Of a stretch of DNA of 39,182 nt, positions 28,261-39,098 are shown one piece after another (the first letter of the stretch is position 1; each line of letters begins with the position of its first letter). Origin of the DNA: Candidatus Darwinimomas equi (GTDB lineage: Bacteria > Bacillota > Clostridia > Lachnospirales > Lachnospiraceae). The notes beneath the pieces were generated by a model, which saw nothing but the letters and a program-made list of their open reading frames with translations, ran no database searches and was not told the DNA's origin. The stretch is taken from the NCBI GenBank assembly GCA_018066045.1, contig JAGHSD010000051.1, positions 1 through 39,182 on the forward strand. Direction: 5' to 3'. A program made the position numbers and the translations under genes.

Positions 28261-30039
28261 TCACTTCCATGTTTTAATCTGAATATCGATGCTTCTTCTG
28301 CCGTTGAACAGATTAAGCTTCGGATAATATAATATATCAATTCTGTCTCTTTTAGCAAGTGCCGATAGGATTTCATCGGAATCTCCGAACTGAATTCCGT
28401 CCGCATTAAAGTATGCTGCATCCCGCAATTTAAACTTTACAAAATTCCTGTAATTGAGCACCGTTCTCGCCGAAAGCACCGTCACATTCTTCTGTGCAAA
28501 CACAGGTTTCTCGTTGCCCTGTCCGAACGGTTCAAGCCTTTCAAGCTGTTCAAAAAGATCAACCGTGGCATACTCCAGAGGAAGAGGCACGTCTATCCAT
28601 ACCTTCCTGACGAAATCATCTTCGGTAAGCCCGGATTCTTTATTCAGCCTCTCCCTCAGAATATCCAGATTATCAAGCTTCATGGAAATGCCCGCCGCAA
28701 GCTTATGTCCTCCGAATTTATCAAACAGTTCGGAAACCTCCGACAGTTTTTCGTACATATTGTATTTTTCTATCGAACGCGCCGAGCCCTTGATCAGTCC
28801 CGGTCCGGAATTAGTGAAGACTATCGCCGGGTGATTGTAGTATTCCTTGATCCTGCCGGCTATGATCCCTGCGATGGATTCATGACAGTCCGGAAGGTAT
28901 ACCACTTTGACATCATCCTCCGGAAATCTGTCTTCGACCTGACGCACTGCCATATCCGCATACTCTTCCGTAAGAAGCTTGCGTTCATCATTCAATTCTT
29001 TAAGATGATCTGCAAGTTCCTCAGCCTTTTTCTCATCATCGGCCATGAACAGCTCCATTGCTATATCCGCCGTCTCCAGCCGTCCTCCCGCATTGATACA
29101 CGGTCCGAGGATAAATCCTATGGCATATGCATTTATCCCGCCCGGGGGCAGAAGGCACGCATCTTTTAAGGCATTGAGCCCGATGTTGTCCGTAGTCTTC
29201 AGTTTCTCAAGACCTTCTTTAACAATTATCCTGTTTTCATCCCTCAGGGGCATCACATCCCCGACAGTCGCTATAGCCGCAAATTCCAGCAGCCGCTTCC
29301 ATTCTTCCATGGGTATGCCGGCATTTTCATATAAAACCTTTACAAGTTTAAATGCCACCATGGCTCCGCATATATCCGTGAACGGGTACGGATCTCCGGG
29401 CTGTTTCGGATCAACTATGGCATCCGCCCCGGGAAGCTGCTCCGGCACTTCATGATGATCCGTAATAACTACGTTCATGCCGTACTGCATTGCAAGCTCG
29501 CACGCTTCATGCGCGGATATTCCGTTATCACAGGTGATGATCAGATCGACTCCTTCAAACTGTGCTTCCTTGATAATAGCTGTATTTATCCCGTACCCGT
29601 CCTTTATACGGTCCGGTATAGCATAGCTTACATCGGCCCCGAGTTTCTTTAATGCCGATACAAGAATATACGTTGAACACACACCGTCAATATCATAGTC
29701 TCCGACTACTCTGATCTTTTTGCCCTCATCTATGGCTCCGGCTATGATATCGGCAGCCAGTTCCATATCGTTCATCAGCCTGCCGTCGTGAATATCATTC
29801 AGAGTACCGTTAAGAAAGAGGTCAAATCCGTCTTCCGGTATGCCTCTGTTTATCATGATTCTGGCAATCACGGGTGATATTCCATATTTCGCCCCGAGTG
29901 AGTTGAAATCCGCTTTCTTCCCGTATACATACCATTTCTGATTGTCAATAGAGCCGTTCAAAAGTATTGTAATAATCTCCCGTGTAATATATAAGCCCGT
30001 CGTTACTGTATAATGTGTCCATTGTAACACATTATTCAT
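28261..30039 (-). CDS. recJ: Single-stranded-DNA-specific exonuclease RecJ
   Basis: DYDIDGVCSTYIL, VITDHHEVPEQLP DHH motif, FGGHKLAAGISM DHHA1 motif. The exact start is uncertain. Confidence 0.93.
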   Translation of the reverse strand: MNNVLQWTHYTVTTGLYITREIITILLNGSIDNQKWYVYGKKADFNSLGAKYGISPVIARIMINRGIPEDGFDLFLNGTLNDIHDGRLMNDMELAADIIAGAIDEGKKIRVVGDYDIDGVCSTYILVSALKKLGADVSYAIPDRIKDGYGINTAIIKEAQFEGVDLIITCDNGISAHEACELAMQYGMNVVITDHHEVPEQLPGADAIVDPKQPGDPYPFTDICGAMVAFKLVKVLYENAGIPMEEWKRLLEFAAIATVGDVMPLRDENRIIVKEGLEKLKTTDNIGLNALKDACLLPPGGINAYAIGFILGPCINAGGRLETADIAMELFMADDEKKAEELADHLKELNDERKLLTEEYADMAVRQVEDRFPEDDVKVVYLPDCHESIAGIIAGRIKEYYNHPAIVFTNSGPGLIKGSARSIEKYNMYEKLSEVSELFDKFGGHKLAAGISMKLDNLDILRERLNKESGLTEDDFVRKVWIDVPLPLEYATVDLFEQLERLEPFGQGNEKPVFAQKNVTVLSARTVLNYRNFVKFKLRDAAYFNADGIQFGDSDEILSALAKRDRIDILYYPKLNLFNGRRSIDIQIKTWK

Positions 30040-30818
30040 TATCTAAGAAACCCTAAACCCTTTTTCTTCTTTGTGTTGTTTTCTTCATCCTGTTTTTTGT
30101 TTCTCATCCCGAAATGATACTTTTTCGGATCGGCATTCAGTGAAGTATACAGTTCATCCATATCTCCTGCCGTCCGGCTGTCTTCATCATCAACTCCCGA
30201 TACCGAGATGACTTCTAAATTATCATCTTTATACTGTACGGTTTCCCTGACTGAAGAATCTGATTCTTTTATCTTTCCTTTCTCTGTGTCCATTGTATTG
30301 CGGTTAACTATGTCCACCAGATCCTCCATACCGTATGTACTCTTCATACTCATCTGATAAAGCGAATAAATCGAAACGACAGCGGAACGGTCGGTACTGT
30401 CAACCATACCCAACAGATCCTGCAGCAGTGATGACAACCCCGCCGAAAATTTCTTTCCGTGTCCCGGGCAGCAGCAGAATACCGGCTCCAGCCTGTCTCC
30501 TGAAATATACATATATTTTCTGTCAATAATCAGATCATCTGCATCCAGCAGATAGTTCTCTAAATTTCTTACGGTACGGCTGATACTGAGTATCAGAGCT
30601 CTTATGTCATCCATCTGCAGGGTACGTGAGCCCACAATCGAATCAAAAGTTTCCATTGAGGATATATCATAATACAGTCTTCTGCTGTCATCCTGTTCCC
30701 TGATTTCAAGCCGCAGAAGTCCCCTGATCCTGTTCGCCTCAAGCATCCTGAGTTTATATCCTATCTCGCCGCAGTCGATGACCAGATAGTTATCCTCTAT
30801 TCTTAAATCATTATTCAT
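30039..30818 (-). CDS. DUF6382-like protein without the usual FHA domain
   Basis: N-terminal LRIEDNYLVIDCGEIGYKLRMLEANRIRGLLRLEIREQDDSRRLYYDISSMETF and CCCPGHGKKFSAGLSSLLQDLLG resemble DUF6382; ends in KKKKGLGFLR. Confidence 0.6.
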   Translation of the reverse strand: MNNDLRIEDNYLVIDCGEIGYKLRMLEANRIRGLLRLEIREQDDSRRLYYDISSMETFDSIVGSRTLQMDDIRALILSISRTVRNLENYLLDADDLIIDRKYMYISGDRLEPVFCCCPGHGKKFSAGLSSLLQDLLGMVDSTDRSAVVSIYSLYQMSMKSTYGMEDLVDIVNRNTMDTEKGKIKESDSSVRETVQYKDDNLEVISVSGVDDEDSRTAGDMDELYTSLNADPKKYHFGMRNKKQDEENNTKKKKGLGFLR

Positions 30819-31227
30819 CCTCAGTTCCTTCTTTCAGATTATCCGTAAAATCTTCAATAACAGAAGTAAGTCTCATATAGTTTTCTGTATCAGCAACCGG
30901 AGCCGTGAACGTTCTTTCATCAAATTCTGCTGCAGCATTGTCTGACAGATCGTTTTTGGAAACATATACCGGCTTTCCGTAAAACCTTCCCACAGTATGC
31001 AGCCTTTTTTCAACACTTTCCTCAATGCTATCTATACTGCTGTTTCCCGACTTCCATTTTTCTTCCAGATATGCCGCCCTCACTGCTGCCTCGTTCGCAA
31101 CATAATTTCCGAAAATATTATCACGGCACTGATATGCAAACATGATCATGGTCACAAGGCAAAGAAAGATGACGGACAGCACAAGAGTCGCTTCTACCGT
31201 AAAGCTTGCTTTCATCTGACAGTTCAT
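30811..31227 (-). CDS. TadE-like pseudopilin
   Basis: N-terminal MNCQMKA-SFTVEATLVLSVIFLCLVTMIMFAY: Glu at +5 of the predicted prepilin cleavage site and a single TM. Confidence 0.75.
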   Translation of the reverse strand: MNCQMKASFTVEATLVLSVIFLCLVTMIMFAYQCRDNIFGNYVANEAAVRAAYLEEKWKSGNSSIDSIEESVEKRLHTVGRFYGKPVYVSKNDLSDNAAAEFDERTFTAPVADTENYMRLTSVIEDFTDNLKEGTEDE

Positions 31228-31240
31228 TGCATCAATACCT

Positions 31241-31696
31241 CTATACTATAAACATCACTCCGAATGCCACCGGAAGGGCTATCGGAAGAAGCGGAAGTGT
31301 GCATCCGCGTATCTTCCGGTTTTTAAAGAACCTTACGGCACATACCACCAGCGAGATAAATGCCCCGAGGATCATCGCCCCGCCGATAAGGAGGATGTTT
31401 CTGCAGCCTAAAACCAACGCAGTGGCAGTAAAGAACATGGCGTCACCATACCCCAACTGCTGACGGGTCAGGATCGCTATCAGCCACATTACTGCCGCCG
31501 ACAAAAGGCCCAGCCCTATCCTGCCCCACAGGATCTCTTTTCCTGTTACAGCCATCCATATATAACCGGCTATCGTTAATATGAACATGGCAATAAACCA
31601 TCTTATATTCACTGTGCCCTTTCTGAAATCGCTGGCGGCACAGACGATTACAAATATCGCAAAAAGCATTTTTCCGTACATAAAATCTATAAGCAT
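31241..31696 (-). CDS. A24 family prepilin peptidase (TadV/CpaA-like)
   Basis: Multi-TM protein with two catalytic Asp contexts: AASDFRKGTVNIRW and GYGDAMFF. Confidence 0.85.
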   Translation of the reverse strand: MLIDFMYGKMLFAIFVIVCAASDFRKGTVNIRWFIAMFILTIAGYIWMAVTGKEILWGRIGLGLLSAAVMWLIAILTRQQLGYGDAMFFTATALVLGCRNILLIGGAMILGAFISLVVCAVRFFKNRKIRGCTLPLLPIALPVAFGVMFIV

Positions 31697-32619
31697 TATT
31701 TTCCTCCGTAATTACCGCAATAACTGCAGCATCCTAAGTGCTCCACCGTCGATTTCTTCACAGCCTGCGGAAATGCCTGCATCGCCGTGCAGTGCACATC
31801 CGTATGGAATTTCCCGCCTTCCGGTGTCACATATACCTGCTGACCCGGAACGGCAGCTCTCCCGCATCTGTCGCATGGTGTTCTGCCTTCCGCTCTTCCG
31901 TTTCCGTTCACAGTTACTGTACTCCAACTGTTTGACAGATAATGACAGCTTGGGGAAAGATGATATCTGGTGGGATTCTTTCCTATGTATACGATTTCAT
32001 CATCTTCGGCTTCCGCATCACCGGCATGGCTCCCTCCGCTTCCGTCTTTTCCCGTCCATGCCCTGCGTGCCGCGACCGTCTCCTGTGTAAGAGTTCCCAG
32101 TCTTAATACCGGAAAGGGAAGTTTGTATTCATAATCAAGTTTTACAACTATCATATCGTTCTCCCTCATAAATTCACTGTCTAAAAAGTTTATGATATTC
32201 AGTCCCCGGTCATCGACCTGCTGTCCTGCTCTTGCAGCGGCAAAGGCTCCGAGTGCGGCATCCGTAGCCAGATTCATGTATTCATCAGCCTCTCCGCCTT
32301 TATCCTCCTGTTTACCCTCCCGTATCTCATTCACCGTATACATGTATCTGCTGACATCCGTTACTACAGATTCAGCCGCTATCTGCATCTGCCGGTCCGC
32401 ATCCATGATTCGCAGCGGAATCATCAGGATAATCATGGAAAACAGTATAAGAGGCAGACCAAGCGCAGCTTCTATCGTTAATGAGGCATTCAGACACACT
32501 CTCTTATCTTTTTCAATGATGCCACAGACATGCGCTTGGAGAGGCGTACTTGTTTTTTGGAATTTTGTATTGAGTTTTGTAAAAAGAGACAGATAAGAGA
32601 GCATGTCCGAAAACCCCAT
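31696..32619 (-). CDS. TadE-like protein with two C-terminal Cys/His modules
   Basis: LNA-SLTIEAALGLPLILFSMIILMIPL TadE-type segment, then VYIGKNPTRYHLSPSCHYL...CDRCG and VYVTPEGGKFHTDVHCTAM...CSYCG. Confidence 0.7.
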   Translation of the reverse strand: MGFSDMLSYLSLFTKLNTKFQKTSTPLQAHVCGIIEKDKRVCLNASLTIEAALGLPLILFSMIILMIPLRIMDADRQMQIAAESVVTDVSRYMYTVNEIREGKQEDKGGEADEYMNLATDAALGAFAAARAGQQVDDRGLNIINFLDSEFMRENDMIVVKLDYEYKLPFPVLRLGTLTQETVAARRAWTGKDGSGGSHAGDAEAEDDEIVYIGKNPTRYHLSPSCHYLSNSWSTVTVNGNGRAEGRTPCDRCGRAAVPGQQVYVTPEGGKFHTDVHCTAMQAFPQAVKKSTVEHLGCCSYCGNYGGK

Positions 32620-32632
32620 TAACTCATATTCA

Positions 32633-34612
32633 TCAATATGCCTTTACGGCATTGGTCTTTATCGTAAAATCGCGCGCCAGACCCATAGTTTCACCTGATA
32701 TCATCGGTATGGAAGTAAACAGATGTTTAACCGCGGCAGTAAATTCCATATCTGTTCCGTATACACAGTTCTTCATCTCAAAATCCTCATCATTTATTTC
32801 TGTATTAACCTGCATGATATCCATCATCCTGTAATTCCGTATTTCAGAGAAAAGCAGAAGGATAATGAACTTCAGATAATTCTCATAATCAAGTCCCCTG
32901 TCGTCACCCGAATCCGGTCCGGACAGATGTCTGCTCTCTCCCCAGTTCAGAATAGAAGAAACATCAAGTTTCCATTCCAAAGGCTGTTTGACCAGAGAAA
33001 CTCTGTTACCTTTAAGAAGAGCCCTGCAGTCAGTAACGGATTCCGCACCCGCCCATACACCGATGATAAGACATTCAACCACCGGAACCAGCGCGGTAAG
33101 CGTACCTCCGCTTGCACCTATTACTATCTCTTCAGCCAGATGCCTTGCCTGTGCCCTCTTATTACCGTCACGCATTATGCTCAGATAATTCATGCCTTCA
33201 CGTATGGCAAATACCTTTCCGGCGGCAGAAGAAAGATTGTCCCTGTCATTTGTTTTTCCTGCACAGATATACTCCATCTCATATCTGACAGGGCCCTCTG
33301 TATCATCCGTAAACTCTGAAAAATACCTCGCAGCATACTCTGCAATCAGCACATTCTCAATAACTGTACGATATTCCGTGGTTCTATCTGTCCCCGTACA
33401 TGTAAGCGACGGTGCTCCGCTCATATCAATATCAGCATTGCTCACGCTCCGGCCTTCGGGAACGATGAGTGCCAGAAGGCCGTCTCCTGCCGCGCTTCCC
33501 AAAAGATCCTTCGCGCTTTCAATAAAACCTTTTTCTTTTTCGTCCGCAACTCCGAATTCAAAATCAAGGTCAGGAATATTTATTGATGCAAATGCATCCG
33601 CAAGCTCATACCACAGGTCCCTGATCTCGCTGTAATCATAATCTTCATCATCTTCAATTGCCGCCTCATACTCTTCAATCATATCTGCGGCCTCTTTACT
33701 TCTTCTGACCGCTTCTATGTTATCGATGGTTACTGAATAAATCTCTTCGACCTGCGTTCTCCGGTTTTTCTCTTCGGCAGAATATCCAAGATAATCATCC
33801 TTTACGGATCTGATGATTTCTTTTCCTTCATCGCTGTTTATATCCGCATATGCGGAAGCATGGTTTTCATCTACCTCATTCAAGGCTTTTTCAAGTTCAT
33901 AAGAACCGTCCTCGTAAACGCATACCAGTCCACCATCACCGCCTTTTCCCGTGACCTTTTCTATCTCATTTATCATCTGATCCGCGTAGCGCTGAAAACT
34001 TCCGTTGGAACCGCTATGAAGTGCCGAGACAGCTTTGCCCTGAACTTCCTTCTGTCTGTTCAATGACTTGTTTATATCCATCAGAGCCTGTTCAACCTTA
34101 AGTGCCTCTTTGGATTTCTCCGCATAATCAGCCGTGATTTCTTCCATAGCCTCAGCTTCTTTCAGATCTTTCCACAGATCATCCAGTTCCTCCGCCGCAC
34201 TCACATCAAAGAGTTCCTCTGCAAGGCCGTAATTCATATAATCAATAATTTCCTGTTCCAGCCACTCTCCTCCGGTATCCGTCAGATAAGAGATCTTGTT
34301 GATACCGGCCGTAACTTCATCCATACCCATCCAGCTCTTTACTTTTATGTACGGATCTATATATTTCATCGCAGAGTTTTCGGCCTCTGTCATATCCTCA
34401 CACTCATATGCCAGGATTCTGTATCTGTCCCACAGTCCGTTATGATATTCGGAAAACAACGAATCCATAGCCGATCCCGCTGCCGTCTCAAGATGGAACT
34501 TCAGGCCTGCAGTACGAGCCGATTCAACCAAAGTCAGGACAAGCGCGGATACGCACACAAAAATCAACGCAAGAAATACGGTTATGGTTCCCCTCAATGG
34601 CTTCATATACAT
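32633..34612 (-). CDS. DUF5702-like Tad locus protein
   Basis: GTITVFLALIFVCVSALVLTLVESARTAGLKFHLETAAGSAMDSLFSEYHNGLWDRYRIL N-terminus typical of DUF5702 proteins. Confidence 0.75.
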   Translation of the reverse strand: MYMKPLRGTITVFLALIFVCVSALVLTLVESARTAGLKFHLETAAGSAMDSLFSEYHNGLWDRYRILAYECEDMTEAENSAMKYIDPYIKVKSWMGMDEVTAGINKISYLTDTGGEWLEQEIIDYMNYGLAEELFDVSAAEELDDLWKDLKEAEAMEEITADYAEKSKEALKVEQALMDINKSLNRQKEVQGKAVSALHSGSNGSFQRYADQMINEIEKVTGKGGDGGLVCVYEDGSYELEKALNEVDENHASAYADINSDEGKEIIRSVKDDYLGYSAEEKNRRTQVEEIYSVTIDNIEAVRRSKEAADMIEEYEAAIEDDEDYDYSEIRDLWYELADAFASINIPDLDFEFGVADEKEKGFIESAKDLLGSAAGDGLLALIVPEGRSVSNADIDMSGAPSLTCTGTDRTTEYRTVIENVLIAEYAARYFSEFTDDTEGPVRYEMEYICAGKTNDRDNLSSAAGKVFAIREGMNYLSIMRDGNKRAQARHLAEEIVIGASGGTLTALVPVVECLIIGVWAGAESVTDCRALLKGNRVSLVKQPLEWKLDVSSILNWGESRHLSGPDSGDDRGLDYENYLKFIILLLFSEIRNYRMMDIMQVNTEINDEDFEMKNCVYGTDMEFTAAVKHLFTSIPMISGETMGLARDFTIKTNAVKAY

Positions 34613-34615
34613 TTC

Positions 34616-34831
34616 TTATGACGTATATACGTTTTCCGCAGCACCCTGAATCTGATCCATAATATTCCCCAGCAGCTTCGTAATCCTGCCCTTGAAAACA
34701 ATAACCAGCCCGATCAGCACGACTAAAATCAGAACGACTTCGATAGTTCCCATGCCGCTCTCGTCCGCGAATTTTTCCCTGATTTTCGGTATCCATCCGT
34801 ATCTGATATTGAAAAAAACTGTTCTAAACAT
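34616..34831 (-). CDS. Flp1-family type IVb pilin
   Basis: 71 aa; FADESG-MGTIEVVLILVVLIGLVIVFKGRITKLL with Glu+5 after the predicted Gly cleavage site. Confidence 0.85.
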   Translation of the reverse strand: MFRTVFFNIRYGWIPKIREKFADESGMGTIEVVLILVVLIGLVIVFKGRITKLLGNIMDQIQGAAENVYTS

Positions 34832-34855: not shown

Positions 34856-36094
34856 TTAAATAAATCCCATAATTGCAGGTGTCTTGATAATCACCATAAC
34901 TATTACCAGCATCATGATCAGAGGAATCAGAAGCTTTGTTGAAGCCTCTTCTCCCTGACGAAGCGCCAGATTTCTTCGTTCCTCCCATGCTTCCATCATC
35001 TCCAACTGAAGAAGCGATTTCATATTCGCCACCCCGGATCTGCGATTCTGCTCAAGAAGCGACGCCAGTTTCATATACTGCTTCAGCCTGCATTGTCTTC
35101 CGAAGTCCCGATATACCGCGCCTTCCGGCGTCCCTGTTTTCAGCCTGTTATTTGCCCTGCATAATTCCTCATATGCATATCTGATTTCGAATTTATCATC
35201 AGCCTTTCTTTTATTCTCATAATCATCAGCTATGGTATTCCATGCAGTCCTCACACTCATCCCGGCTCCGACAAAAATCAGAAGCCTGGAAACGATCTCC
35301 GGATAATCCATCTGCATCTGTTTGTCTCTTTTCTTCTGTTCTGTTTTCTCGTTCTCTCTGTCACGCAGAAAAAACAGCAGTGCCAGAACTATCCCGAATA
35401 TCCATATGAAGTTGTAAGACCTGTCCTTAGAATCAGTGTATCTGATACTTCGTCCCTCATAGTTCTCAGGAAGTTCCACTTTCGGTGCAGTCGCCGCTTT
35501 TTCATCGGCATCCTCTATCATCTCGATCAGGCCTTTTGCACGTCTTTCAGAATCCGTCAGCTTCTGCGGCATGACGGTTACCGGCACCGCATACTCATTC
35601 TTATAATCTTCATTGCTGACCGCAACATGCAGTATGGTTTCCCTTGCTTCCCCGAGTTCTGCGTTTTTCACGGTTCCCGCTGACGTGATCACATCCCTGT
35701 CGTCCGAAGTCCATACAAGTTTGAATCCGTACTCAGAACTGCGGTCCGGGAGTTTCATATCATAATAAATCTCACTCGTTGAGGGATTGTCCCCCAGCGC
35801 TTCCTCCACCGCACTCTCCATACATCTACGCATGGCATCATCTATCTCATCGTCACTGTATTTTCTCGGCTGTACGGAAATATTCATCTGCACGGTATCA
35901 TCTTCCAGTCCGTCCACATATAACGATTCCGTTTTTTTATTTCCGTATCCTGCCCGTTCTATCTCGTGAATGCTTTCAGCCTTTCCGGGCTGCAGAATCT
36001 GTGCCAGCACAAACAAAACAACACCGCCGGCAACACATATGATCTGCAGTTTGTATTTCTTTGTCAGACCTTTGATCTTCTCTCTATCCATCAA
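34856..36094 (-). CDS. TadC-like T2SF-family membrane protein with large extracytoplasmic insertion
   Basis: C-terminal DYPEIVSRLLIFVGAGMSVRTAWNTIA ... KQYMKLASLLEQNRRSGVANM ... GEEASTKLLIPLIMMLVIVMVIIKTPA is TadC-like. Confidence 0.82.
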   Translation of the reverse strand: MMDREKIKGLTKKYKLQIICVAGGVVLFVLAQILQPGKAESIHEIERAGYGNKKTESLYVDGLEDDTVQMNISVQPRKYSDDEIDDAMRRCMESAVEEALGDNPSTSEIYYDMKLPDRSSEYGFKLVWTSDDRDVITSAGTVKNAELGEARETILHVAVSNEDYKNEYAVPVTVMPQKLTDSERRAKGLIEMIEDADEKAATAPKVELPENYEGRSIRYTDSKDRSYNFIWIFGIVLALLFFLRDRENEKTEQKKRDKQMQMDYPEIVSRLLIFVGAGMSVRTAWNTIADDYENKRKADDKFEIRYAYEELCRANNRLKTGTPEGAVYRDFGRQCRLKQYMKLASLLEQNRRSGVANMKSLLQLEMMEAWEERRNLALRQGEEASTKLLIPLIMMLVIVMVIIKTPAIMGFI

Positions 36095-36834
36095 ATCTCA
36101 ATCTCCAGAATCTTCTGTCCTATCAGAATCGCTGCGATATATGCCGCCAGACAGACCGTCATAATTATTCTTCCTGCCGCAGTCTCATACATGACACCGA
36201 AGAATCCCGGGGATGTAACTTCAATATATAAGACTATGACTATCGGTATAATACTCATCACCTTCTGTTCAAGTCTTTTCTCAGCTGTCTGCGTCAGGAT
36301 CTCCTCTTTGATCCGGATCTTGTCCCCGATGGTATCGGCAGTCCTCATGATGATCGAGTTAAGTTCTCCTCCTGTGCGTTTTGCCGCTCTTATAACCCTG
36401 GCGAAATTCTCTATATCATCCGTTCCGCTTCTTCCGGCAAACTCCTGCCATGCAGTCTCCACCGGAACGTTCATTTTCACCCTGTGATTCATATAGTCAA
36501 ATTCACGGACTATCATCGAATTCCCGTCATAAATCAGTTTCAGTTCCTCACCTGTCTCTATCATGGCATTCTCCATCGAATATCCCGCGGACAAAGCGGA
36601 CGCCAGTACAGTTATGGCTTCTCTGAATTCCGAAGAGAGCCTTCTCTTTCGTTCCTCATAAAGATCTCTTTTCTTATACAGCGGATACAAAATAGCCGCA
36701 GGCACGGCAAGTATCGCGAACACGATAAGATTCCTGTAAAAAACAAATGCCGCTATTCCCGCAATCACTATTCCCGTCAGCCCGTATCGTACCCACTCTC
36801 CGGTGCTTAATTTATATACCGTATAATCCGTCAC
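36091..36834 (-). CDS. TadB-like T2SF-family membrane protein
   Basis: LSSEFREAITVLASALSAGYSMENAM, FARVIRAAKRTGGELNSIIMRTADTI. Likely GTG start at 36834 ([14 protein letters not shown]); the ORF-track call from 36981 overlaps tadA by 170 nt. Confidence 0.82.
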   Translation of the reverse strand: MTDYTVYKLSTGEWVRYGLTGIVIAGIAAFVFYRNLIVFAILAVPAAILYPLYKKRDLYEERKRRLSSEFREAITVLASALSAGYSMENAMIETGEELKLIYDGNSMIVREFDYMNHRVKMNVPVETAWQEFAGRSGTDDIENFARVIRAAKRTGGELNSIIMRTADTIGDKIRIKEEILTQTAEKRLEQKVMSIIPIVIVLYIEVTSPGFFGVMYETAAGRIIMTVCLAAYIAAILIGQKILEIEI

Positions 36835-38056
36835 CTGAGGCTGCGAGCTTTGCTGTGTTTTTAAGAGACGAAACCTTCCTGAGCCCTCCTCTGACTGTCC
36901 TTGATGCCTTTGCCGCCGGTCCGGATTCTTCGCAGAATTCATATATAACGTTTGTTCTGATCTGGCCTTCCTCATACCCAAGTACCTCCACTATGGACAG
37001 GACCCTCCTGCTTCTGTCCCTGACTCTTCCCAAATGCACTAATATGTCCAGTGCATTTGCCATCTGTCCGCGTATCGCATCAAGCGGCATTCCCGCACCG
37101 GCACTTCCGCTTAAAACCATAGTCTCGATACGTGTCAGCATTTCCCTTGCAGAGTTTGCATGACCCGTACTCAGGCTGCCGTCATGTCCGGTATTCATAG
37201 CCTGAAGCATATCCAGCGCCTCCGCACCTCTGACCTCCCCGACCACGATCCGGTCCGGGTTCATCCTCAGCGATGCCTTGATCAGATCGGCTATTCCGAC
37301 TGCGCCTTCCCCCTGGGAATTGGCTCCCCTTGCTTCCAGACTCACTAAATTCTCAATATGCCTCAGCTGAAGCTCCGCCGAATCCTCTATGGTAATCACG
37401 CGTTCCGATGACGGTATGAATCCCGACAGAGCATTCAGAAATGTAGTCTTGCCGGAATTTGTCCCGCCCGAAATGAAAATGTTATACCCCGCTCTTACCA
37501 GCCTTCCCAAAAACTCCGCCGCCTCGCGTGTTATCGCTCCGTAAGCAATCAGTTTCTCCATTGATATAGGTTCGGGAAATTTTCGTATCGTCAGCACCGG
37601 CCCCGTAAGAGAAACCGGCGGGAGTACAACATGCACTCTCGATCCGTCAGGCAGTCTGGCATCCACTACCGGCTGGCTTACATTGACAACCCTGTTCACT
37701 CTCGAAACTATCTGCTGTATAAGATTTTCAAGCTGCTCGCGTGACGAGAATTTCAGCGGCCACTCCACCACCTGTCCGGCCTGCTCCACAAAGACATGAT
37801 CCGGTCCGTTTACCATAATCTCGGTAATATCCGGCCTGTCTATCAGTTCCTGCAATATATCAAGCCTCCGGAACGAGTCAAACAGCCTGCCTCTTATCTG
37901 AAGTTTCCGGCTGACCGGAAGAAAACTGTCCTGCTCGGCAATCTCAATCTGCTCATCGATCATGTTATACAGTTCCTCATCATCCACCCCGCTCATGTCG
38001 GAAAGCCTGTCACTCAGATTCGCCTGTATCAGGGAAAAGACCTCCTGCGTATTCAT
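36812..38056 (-). CDS. TadA/CpaF-family secretion ATPase
   Basis: [16 protein letters not shown] Walker [35 protein letters not shown]. Start uncertain (38056 MNTQEVF used here; the ORF extends to 38116). Confidence 0.94.
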
Positions 38057-39011
38057 ACATGGCCCCATATCCGTATTCCTCCTCTTCCGGAAGCGCTCTG
38101 TCAAACCTTTCCTCATATGGCAGCTTCACTTCTTTTATCCTCGCAAGCATTTCCGCTCTTCCGCTCTGTTCCAGAGACTCCCTGTACTCCGCAGCCTTGT
38201 ACGAACTGATTGCATCATCCGGCACCGGCATGTAAACCTCATCGCATATCTCCGTGATCTCGGCGGCATGCTTCCCGTAACTACCCATGTCAAGAATCAG
38301 GAAATCATATCCGCTCTCCTTCTTAATATGCCCTAAAAGATCCGTCATCTGCTGCGGACTCAGTGCCGCAAGATCCTCCGCGTATCTCACCGGCGCAATA
38401 TAATCCGTACTTCCGAAATGACATACCGACTGCGACAGCCGCACCCACGAATATCTTCCCTGCCTGTACGCATAAATCACATCGGACAAATCTCCGACCG
38501 CATCCGCCGCCAGATATCTGAAAACCCCGGCGAACTCATCTAAAATTATCAGCAGGCAGCGCCCTCTCTGCCCCAGCAGCTGAGAGACAGTTATGGAAAA
38601 TGTAGTCTTCCCGCAGCGTCCTGCCGGGGAATACACTCCTATCATACGGCTCCGCTTTGCCGAAGCGTGTTCAAGATAGGACGGAGCCTTGTCCTCGTAT
38701 TCCCTGAGAACATTTTTTAACAGAAGATCCGCCCTGGAATATTTATTTACGGACGGAACCGCAACCGAAGAGAATCCGTCACCGGACAGACATATGACAA
38801 CTCCGCCGACATCACCCTCGTGAAGCCCGCAGTATTCAGTTTCATCGATCAGGAGAATCCGAACATCATAATCAGAATTTTTAGAAAGGAATTTTTTGGT
38901 ATCAGAAAAGATGACCGCTTTCATGCCGCCATTCTCGTGGTTGTTGAAATATTGTGCCAGTCTCCCGGCATACTCGACATCGGGATCTACTATTGCGATA
39001 ACACGACGCAC
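38010..39011 (-). CDS. TadZ/CpaE-like ParA-type ATPase
   Basis: Receiver-like N-terminus VRRVIAIVDPDVEYAGRLAQYF and GVYSPAGRCGKTTFSITVSQLL deviant Walker A. GTG start at 39011; the ORF-track start (TTG 39098) coincides with a -35 box. Confidence 0.82.
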   Translation of the reverse strand: MRRVIAIVDPDVEYAGRLAQYFNNHENGGMKAVIFSDTKKFLSKNSDYDVRILLIDETEYCGLHEGDVGGVVICLSGDGFSSVAVPSVNKYSRADLLLKNVLREYEDKAPSYLEHASAKRSRMIGVYSPAGRCGKTTFSITVSQLLGQRGRCLLIILDEFAGVFRYLAADAVGDLSDVIYAYRQGRYSWVRLSQSVCHFGSTDYIAPVRYAEDLAALSPQQMTDLLGHIKKESGYDFLILDMGSYGKHAAEITEICDEVYMPVPDDAISSYKAAEYRESLEQSGRAEMLARIKEVKLPYEERFDRALPEEEEYGYGAMYEYAGGLFPDTGESE

Positions 39012-39069
39012 TGCCGCTTTGCAAAGACGAGTAAAAAGAATATAAAAGACATTAACAAATCTTGCGCAA

Positions 39070-39098
39070 ATAATATACTCAAAAAAACTCCCGGTCAA
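39070..39098 (-). promoter_or_regulatory. Tad locus promoter
   Basis: Minus strand TTGACC (39093-39098), 17 nt, TATTAT (39070-39075). Confidence 0.7.

Follow-up and report, generated by a model that had tools for sequence, protein, structure and literature searches.

Among the closest described systems to the protein studied here are the TadE, TadF and TadG pilins and the Kil 'Tip' complexes, in which a minor prepilin of a Tad locus likewise carries an extra C-terminal domain (PMC12075869). From work on Myxococcus, exchangeable or variable tip domains have been proposed for many Tad pili (PMC12075869). Natural transformation of Micrococcus luteus (PMC4322843) and DNA uptake by Liberibacter (PMC8513845) both depend on Tad/Flp pilus genes, and the ComEC domain is a nuclease required for transformation (PMC8579336). 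PilJ of C. difficile, with its PilJ_C domain (PF18223), is likewise a Gram-positive minor pilin.

Here we describe a TadE-like minor pilin encoded on a stretch of 39,182 nucleotides from Candidatus Darwinimomas equi, a member of the Lachnospiraceae; this whole stretch is hereafter called the window. Kil tips bear unrelated domains with predicted disulfides, whereas the window protein ends in a zinc-type double module. Such a duplicated ligand set is absent from standard descriptions of TadE, as the initial annotation of this DNA had remarked. Our search of the literature on Ada-like domains on pilins, DUF5702 and Tad pili in Lachnospiraceae (subscription papers were outside its scope) returned nothing relevant, and the papers searched describe no role for the Tad pilus in this family.

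Results

A TadE-like minor pilin with two C-terminal units

The open reading frame at 31696-32619 (-) encodes 307 amino acids. A scan with Pfam and NCBIfam named no domain in any part of its product, and we call the protein TadE-like because it has no match above the Pfam TadE (PF07811) cut-off, which module-bearing relatives from L275, L283, L287, L289 and L291 do exceed. Glu5 of the mature N-terminus, SLTIEAALGLPLIL, is invariant in 28 and in 67 aligned relatives. Together with the surrounding Tad locus, this prepilin N-terminus marks the product, on sequence grounds, as a minor pilin of the TadE type, belonging to the Tad pilus of a monoderm bacterium; the initial annotation likewise read it as a TadE-like minor pilin. 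The prepilin leader (window 32485-32619) is very long, which may reflect an extended N-terminal signal or an incorrectly assigned start. A TLQVR-like motif occurs well upstream of the cleavage site in L004, L005 and L007-L009; the window version reads PLQAHV.

The last 99 residues (209-307, positions 31699-31995) comprise two units, IVYIGKNPTRYHLSPSCHYL...TPCDRCG followed by QVYVTPEGGKFHTDVHCTAM...CCSYCG, both with the pattern [YF]H-x4-C-x(n)-CxxC. That two related Cys/His units lie here had been seen before, with exact coordinates and sequence, and both shuffling and profile comparison agree: randomly reordering the 99 C-terminal residues 200,000 times produced no tandem pair of such units, and the profiles of units 1 and 2 aligned by hhalign with an E-value of 1.6e-14 (score 62, ligand-keeping column shuffles reaching at most 21). 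Judged by these profiles, the units are homologous to each other. The predicted strands also follow the same succession in both, a likeness of the models that concerns strand order only.

AlphaFold models were of fair quality, with pLDDT values of 83 and 87 and with module residues mostly above 80. The AF2 model of the mature protein has a helix at residues 2-58 and a linker at residues 148-158 with pLDDT below 50. This linker carries a mean net charge of -3.2 over 20 residues among 80 relatives, and the double module is positive in 92% of sequences, with a mean of +4.8. TadE proteins lacking the module stop at the same RAW point at which the pilin domain of the window protein ends.

The gene belongs to a complete Tad locus (Table 1). 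In all 64 full-length named loci, TadZ, TadA, TadB, TadC and DUF5702 are encoded on the same strand at matching distances and the DUF5702 gene adjoins the TadE-like gene. The DUF5702 protein is TadG-like by size, position and hydrophobic N-terminus, and the TadC-like protein gave only a sub-threshold aBig_2 match in the Pfam scan. A DUF6382 protein is encoded downstream of the pilin genes (window 30039-30818) and occurs in 59 of 64 full related loci.

Table 1. Features of the window and module-bearing pilins of other Bacillota
Feature	Position	Strand	Evidence
Second small prepilin-like protein (ASFTVEATLVLSVIF), without module	30811..31227	-	sequence
Prepilin peptidase (A24)	31241..31696	-	PF01478 E 1.7e-5, just below cut-off
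TadE-like minor prepilin with C-terminal double module	31696..32619	-	relatives in 192/200 family genomes
Unit 2, residues 261-302, ligands H272, C277, C298, C301	31714..31839	-	alignments, hhalign
Unit 1, residues 209-253, ligands H220, C225, C249, C252	31861..31995	-	alignments, hhalign
Short acidic Gly/Ser-rich linker, after RAW-x-G end of pilin domain	31996..32055	-	pLDDT, charge, module-less TadE ends
Prepilin N-terminus, LNA followed by SLTIEAALGLPLIL...	32413..32487	-	predicted cleavage A45/S46, Glu +5, then hydrophobic helix
DUF5702 protein, TadG-like neighbour	32633..34612	-	PF18960 E 1.4e-69
Flp1-like major pilin	34616..34831	-	PF16982 E 2.6e-18
TadC-like protein	34856..36094	-	locus position; tblastn match in 64/64 full loci
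TadB-like platform protein	36091..36981	-	PF00482 E 4.7e-13
TadA ATPase	36812..38116	-	PF00437 E 2.5e-55; TIGR03819 E 6e-84
TadZ-like ATPase	38010..39098	-	weak TadZ/CpaE matches; present in 64/64 full loci
Module-bearing pilin between Flp1 and DUF5702	L283:12101-12931
Module-bearing pilin between Flp1 and DUF5702	L287:8344-9159
Module-bearing pilin between Flp1 and DUF5702	L288:4714-5529
Module-bearing pilin between Flp1 and DUF5702	L289:6452-7303
Module-bearing pilin between Flp1 and DUF5702	L290:7315-8124
Module-bearing pilin between Flp1 and DUF5702	L291:5644-6393

Conservation across Lachnospiraceae

We surveyed 200 genomes of Lachnospiraceae, one per genus. A relative of the TadE-like gene was found in 191 by the first search and in 192 once G197, one of the nine genomes missed at first, was seen to have it; five of the nine seem to lack a clear TadA. 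In G007, TadA is present and the TadE-like protein has an unrelated C-terminus. No convincing relatives were found on viral contigs or plasmids. The initial annotation had made its reading depend on conservation of the Cys and His residues in homologous TadE proteins, and this proved strict. Every one of the eight ligands (a His and three Cys from each unit) is invariant in the first 30 aligned relatives and in 145 of 145 distinct Lachnospiraceae sequences, one of which (L172) needs a one-residue gap in the first CxxC to align. These sequences came from three sets, namely 30 best matches, 80 named loci (including Hungatella, Lacrimispora, Lachnoanaerobaculum and [Clostridium] symbiosum) and 40 weaker matches. 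Patterns lying close to the modules had served to locate the named loci, and taken alone the conservation in that set would be biased; the weaker matches were picked without such patterns, and all loci taken hold both units. The double module is a family-wide trait of gut and oral Lachnospiraceae that extends beyond the window protein.

Relatives of the module and remote kinship with N-Ada by sequence profile

A class-wide search with the double module retrieved secreted proteins that bear one copy at their C-terminus, at its extreme end in the carriers sampled. Also with the only TadE sequence removed from the set, units 1 and 2 matched these single modules by hhalign with E-values of 4e-18 and 7e-19, respectively, and with scores of 77-79 against at most 24 for ligand-keeping shuffles. 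Secreted Bacillota nucleases (SNase, Endonuclease_NS_2 and ComEC-type MBL) have the same C-terminal module by profile (E about 1e-18), in single copy on soluble or lipoprotein enzymes, whereas the window protein has two copies on a membrane-anchored prepilin. From these alignments, both units belong to one module family, kin of the C-terminal module of secreted Bacillota proteins, with a His for the first Cys of Ada. A copy in L266 (1021-2292) is internal to a protein that is RNase H-like by eye and apparently cytoplasmic.

The single modules in turn scored 55 against the PF02805-type set (ligand-keeping shuffles at most 26). Compared directly, unit 1 scored 34 (shuffles at most 22) and unit 2 only 18 (shuffles at most 16), which means that unit 2 hardly reaches this set and does so only via the single modules. 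Distant relatives of the module pass the Pfam cut-off of Ada_Zn_binding (PF02805); the window protein gave no match at this curated cut-off. Cys38 is the methyl-acceptor cysteine of the DNA-repair protein Ada. A PF02805-type profile without true Ada sequences matched the solved N-Ada structure 1adn with an E-value of 3.6e-5 and with His on the Cys38 position, and with His aligned there the module would not be an Ada-type methyl acceptor.

The PF02805 layout consists of four ligands in two pairs, the second being a CxxC, and both units keep the order and the CxxC, with a Pro before the CxxC in unit 1 only. N-Ada (PDB 1adn, 1eyf, 1u8b, 1zgw and 1wpk) has the same ligand order and the conserved Gly-x-x-Pro-Cys-x-x-Cys end in common, and PF02805-type H-modules align with it over 40 residues. 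The pilin module differs in having His for Cys38 and H-x4-C for C-x3-C, and the pilin modules are tandem and predicted to be extracellular whereas N-Ada is cytoplasmic. Foldseek gave no significant match, N-Ada included, for either the full model or the double-module model; on their sequence profiles, we regard the modules as remotely related to N-Ada.

Identification as PilJ_C, FdhE or RING/PHD was rejected, the matches being partial, sub-threshold and inconsistent; those to PilJ_C, in 2 of 30 members, also differed in place and were treated as chance. A RING-like cross-brace was also considered for the eight ligands; two separate sites are probably the simpler reading, given single modules that have a complete HCCC set of their own.

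Metal or disulfide

The choice between metal sites and disulfide-linked modules had been left open by the initial annotation. Each unit has one His and three Cys and is by profile kin to the zinc domain of Ada, and in the TadE modules of family f153 (L208, L210, L213 and L223) HxxC stands in place of CxxC, as in RPHKGCP, a swap compatible with a zinc site but not with a CxxC redox pair. These features favor zinc over a disulfide, and predicted zinc sites are by far the likeliest reading. Extracellular cysteines that act in redox reactions or pair in disulfides would suit the CxxC of both units and their extracytoplasmic location, but would leave the invariant His beside three Cys, the HxxC relative and the homology to a zinc module unaccounted for. 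We consider this very unlikely, and the redox role once suggested found no support. Two exposed HCCC sites would also bind Zn2+ tightly, as expected if the modules served to collect or sense extracellular metal ions, zinc for example. Given that the module is widespread on nucleases and that the Tad locus holds no hint of metal uptake, such a function appears extremely unlikely.

The module on Tad pilins of other Bacillota

At the TadE position of other Bacillota, the pilin has one module (L061, L206 and L211), two (family f5), the HxxC form (f153) or none. In six loci of families f89/f131 (Table 1), a single Ada-type module sits at the C-terminus of the pilin encoded between Flp1 and DUF5702; this module matches the PF02805-type set with an E-value of 1e-15, and the TadE-position pilin is without one. 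Of five such module-bearing f89/f131 pilins scanned, four exceed the Pfam TadE cut-off and one is slightly below it. Where both pilins are present and TadE bears the module, the other pilin lacked it in all four loci checked, and both minor pilins were tagged in none of the loci checked, a one-pilin-at-a-time pattern that comes from a small, partly related sample. Tad minor pilins have thus acquired modules of this kind on at least two occasions, apparently on one pilin of the two at a time. The one-module, HxxC and other-pilin variants support zinc and a repeatedly selected function in the pilus. In L204, L215, L219, L220 and L221, of a Paenibacillus-like family, the TadE-like proteins have a different C-terminal domain, beta-rich and possibly Ig-like, at the place where zinc-type modules would be.

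These variants bear on a purely structural role, in which the modules would be two zinc knuckles that stabilise the minor-pilin complex as a cap or bind DUF5702/TadF-like pilins, with no outside ligand. Invariant ligands in a small, generic fold would be expected in that case, as would the occurrence of the module as a cap at the C-terminus of secreted proteins of widely differing kinds, some without an enzyme domain. The role is harder to reconcile with complete loci of other Bacillota whose TadE is module-less, with a module that can sit on the other pilin instead, and with the unrelated C-terminal extensions of TadE in the Paenibacillus-like family and in one member of the Lachnospiraceae, as expected of a display site. 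We rate a purely structural role as possible but not probable.

Carriers of the module and candidate ligands

Nucleases and ComEC-type nuclease-like hydrolases make up half of the 42 non-pilin carriers sampled, with a ComEC-type hydrolase domain in 12, SNase in 6 and a DNA/RNA non-specific endonuclease in 3. Others are lipoproteins, SH3, ChW and choline-binding proteins, some without an enzyme domain, and given such carriers the module may be a general C-terminal cap. The genome to which the window belongs encodes ComEA and ComEC. TadA is the only type IV filament ATPase found there and no ComGA-like ATPase occurs beyond it; with the assembly about 81% complete, the absence of a Com pilus is provisional. 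ComEC seems split in the genus, its membrane and hydrolase parts being encoded in adjacent, slightly overlapping frames (G000:C34:7332-9154, G871:C58). The nuclease carriers, the positive charge of the module, the presence of ComEA and ComEC without a second ATPase, and Tad-dependent uptake elsewhere make extracellular DNA the leading candidate ligand.

Alternatively, the ligand could be a polymer of the cell surface or of the host (peptidoglycan, teichoic acid or glycans), and the modules would then act in adhesion instead of DNA capture. Tad pili serve adhesion, SH3, ChW or choline-binding repeats occur in some carriers, and in Myxococcus prey cells are recognised by Tad tips that bear variable domains (PMC12075869), but half of the sampled carriers are nuclease-type and few are wall-binding, which makes such a surface or host ligand unlikely.

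Discussion

We consider it probable that the C-terminal units are zinc-stabilised display modules on a Tad minor pilin, with ligand binding the probable function and DNA the leading candidate. Each unit would likely fold around one structural Zn2+ held by its HCCC set. Cleavage of the prepilin would then likely leave the module pair displayed outside the cell, a location we infer in agreement with the initial annotation, on the complex of minor pilins from which the pilus begins or which forms its tip. A tip position for TadE is uncertain, since neither TadE nor TadF was detected when M. luteus pili were sheared off (PMC4322843). With less certainty, the positively charged pair may form a ligand-binding head for extracellular DNA or another polyanion, and by analogy with M. 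luteus and Liberibacter the Tad pilus would in that case serve to capture DNA or to adhere.

A bolder proposal, which we put forward only tentatively, is that the Lachnospiraceae Tad pilus is a DNA-capturing, competence-like machine, in which the Ada-type zinc tandem of TadE grips DNA and feeds ComEA and ComEC without a Com pilus, the module having been recruited at least twice. Three points extend the initial annotation: the double module is a trait of the whole family, from its profiles the module has a known relative in the Ada_Zn_binding type modules of secreted nucleases, and in other Bacillota it occurs on another Tad pilin.

The pilus gene occurs in nearly all sampled genera of the Lachnospiraceae, a dominant family of gut commensals. 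The family of modules described here is missed on pilins by current domain libraries, and its recognition extends the idea of exchangeable Tad tip domains to monoderm bacteria. An invariant metal-type head that is common to these pilins and to secreted nucleases leads to a testable hypothesis, namely that it holds a zinc site and binds DNA or another polymer.
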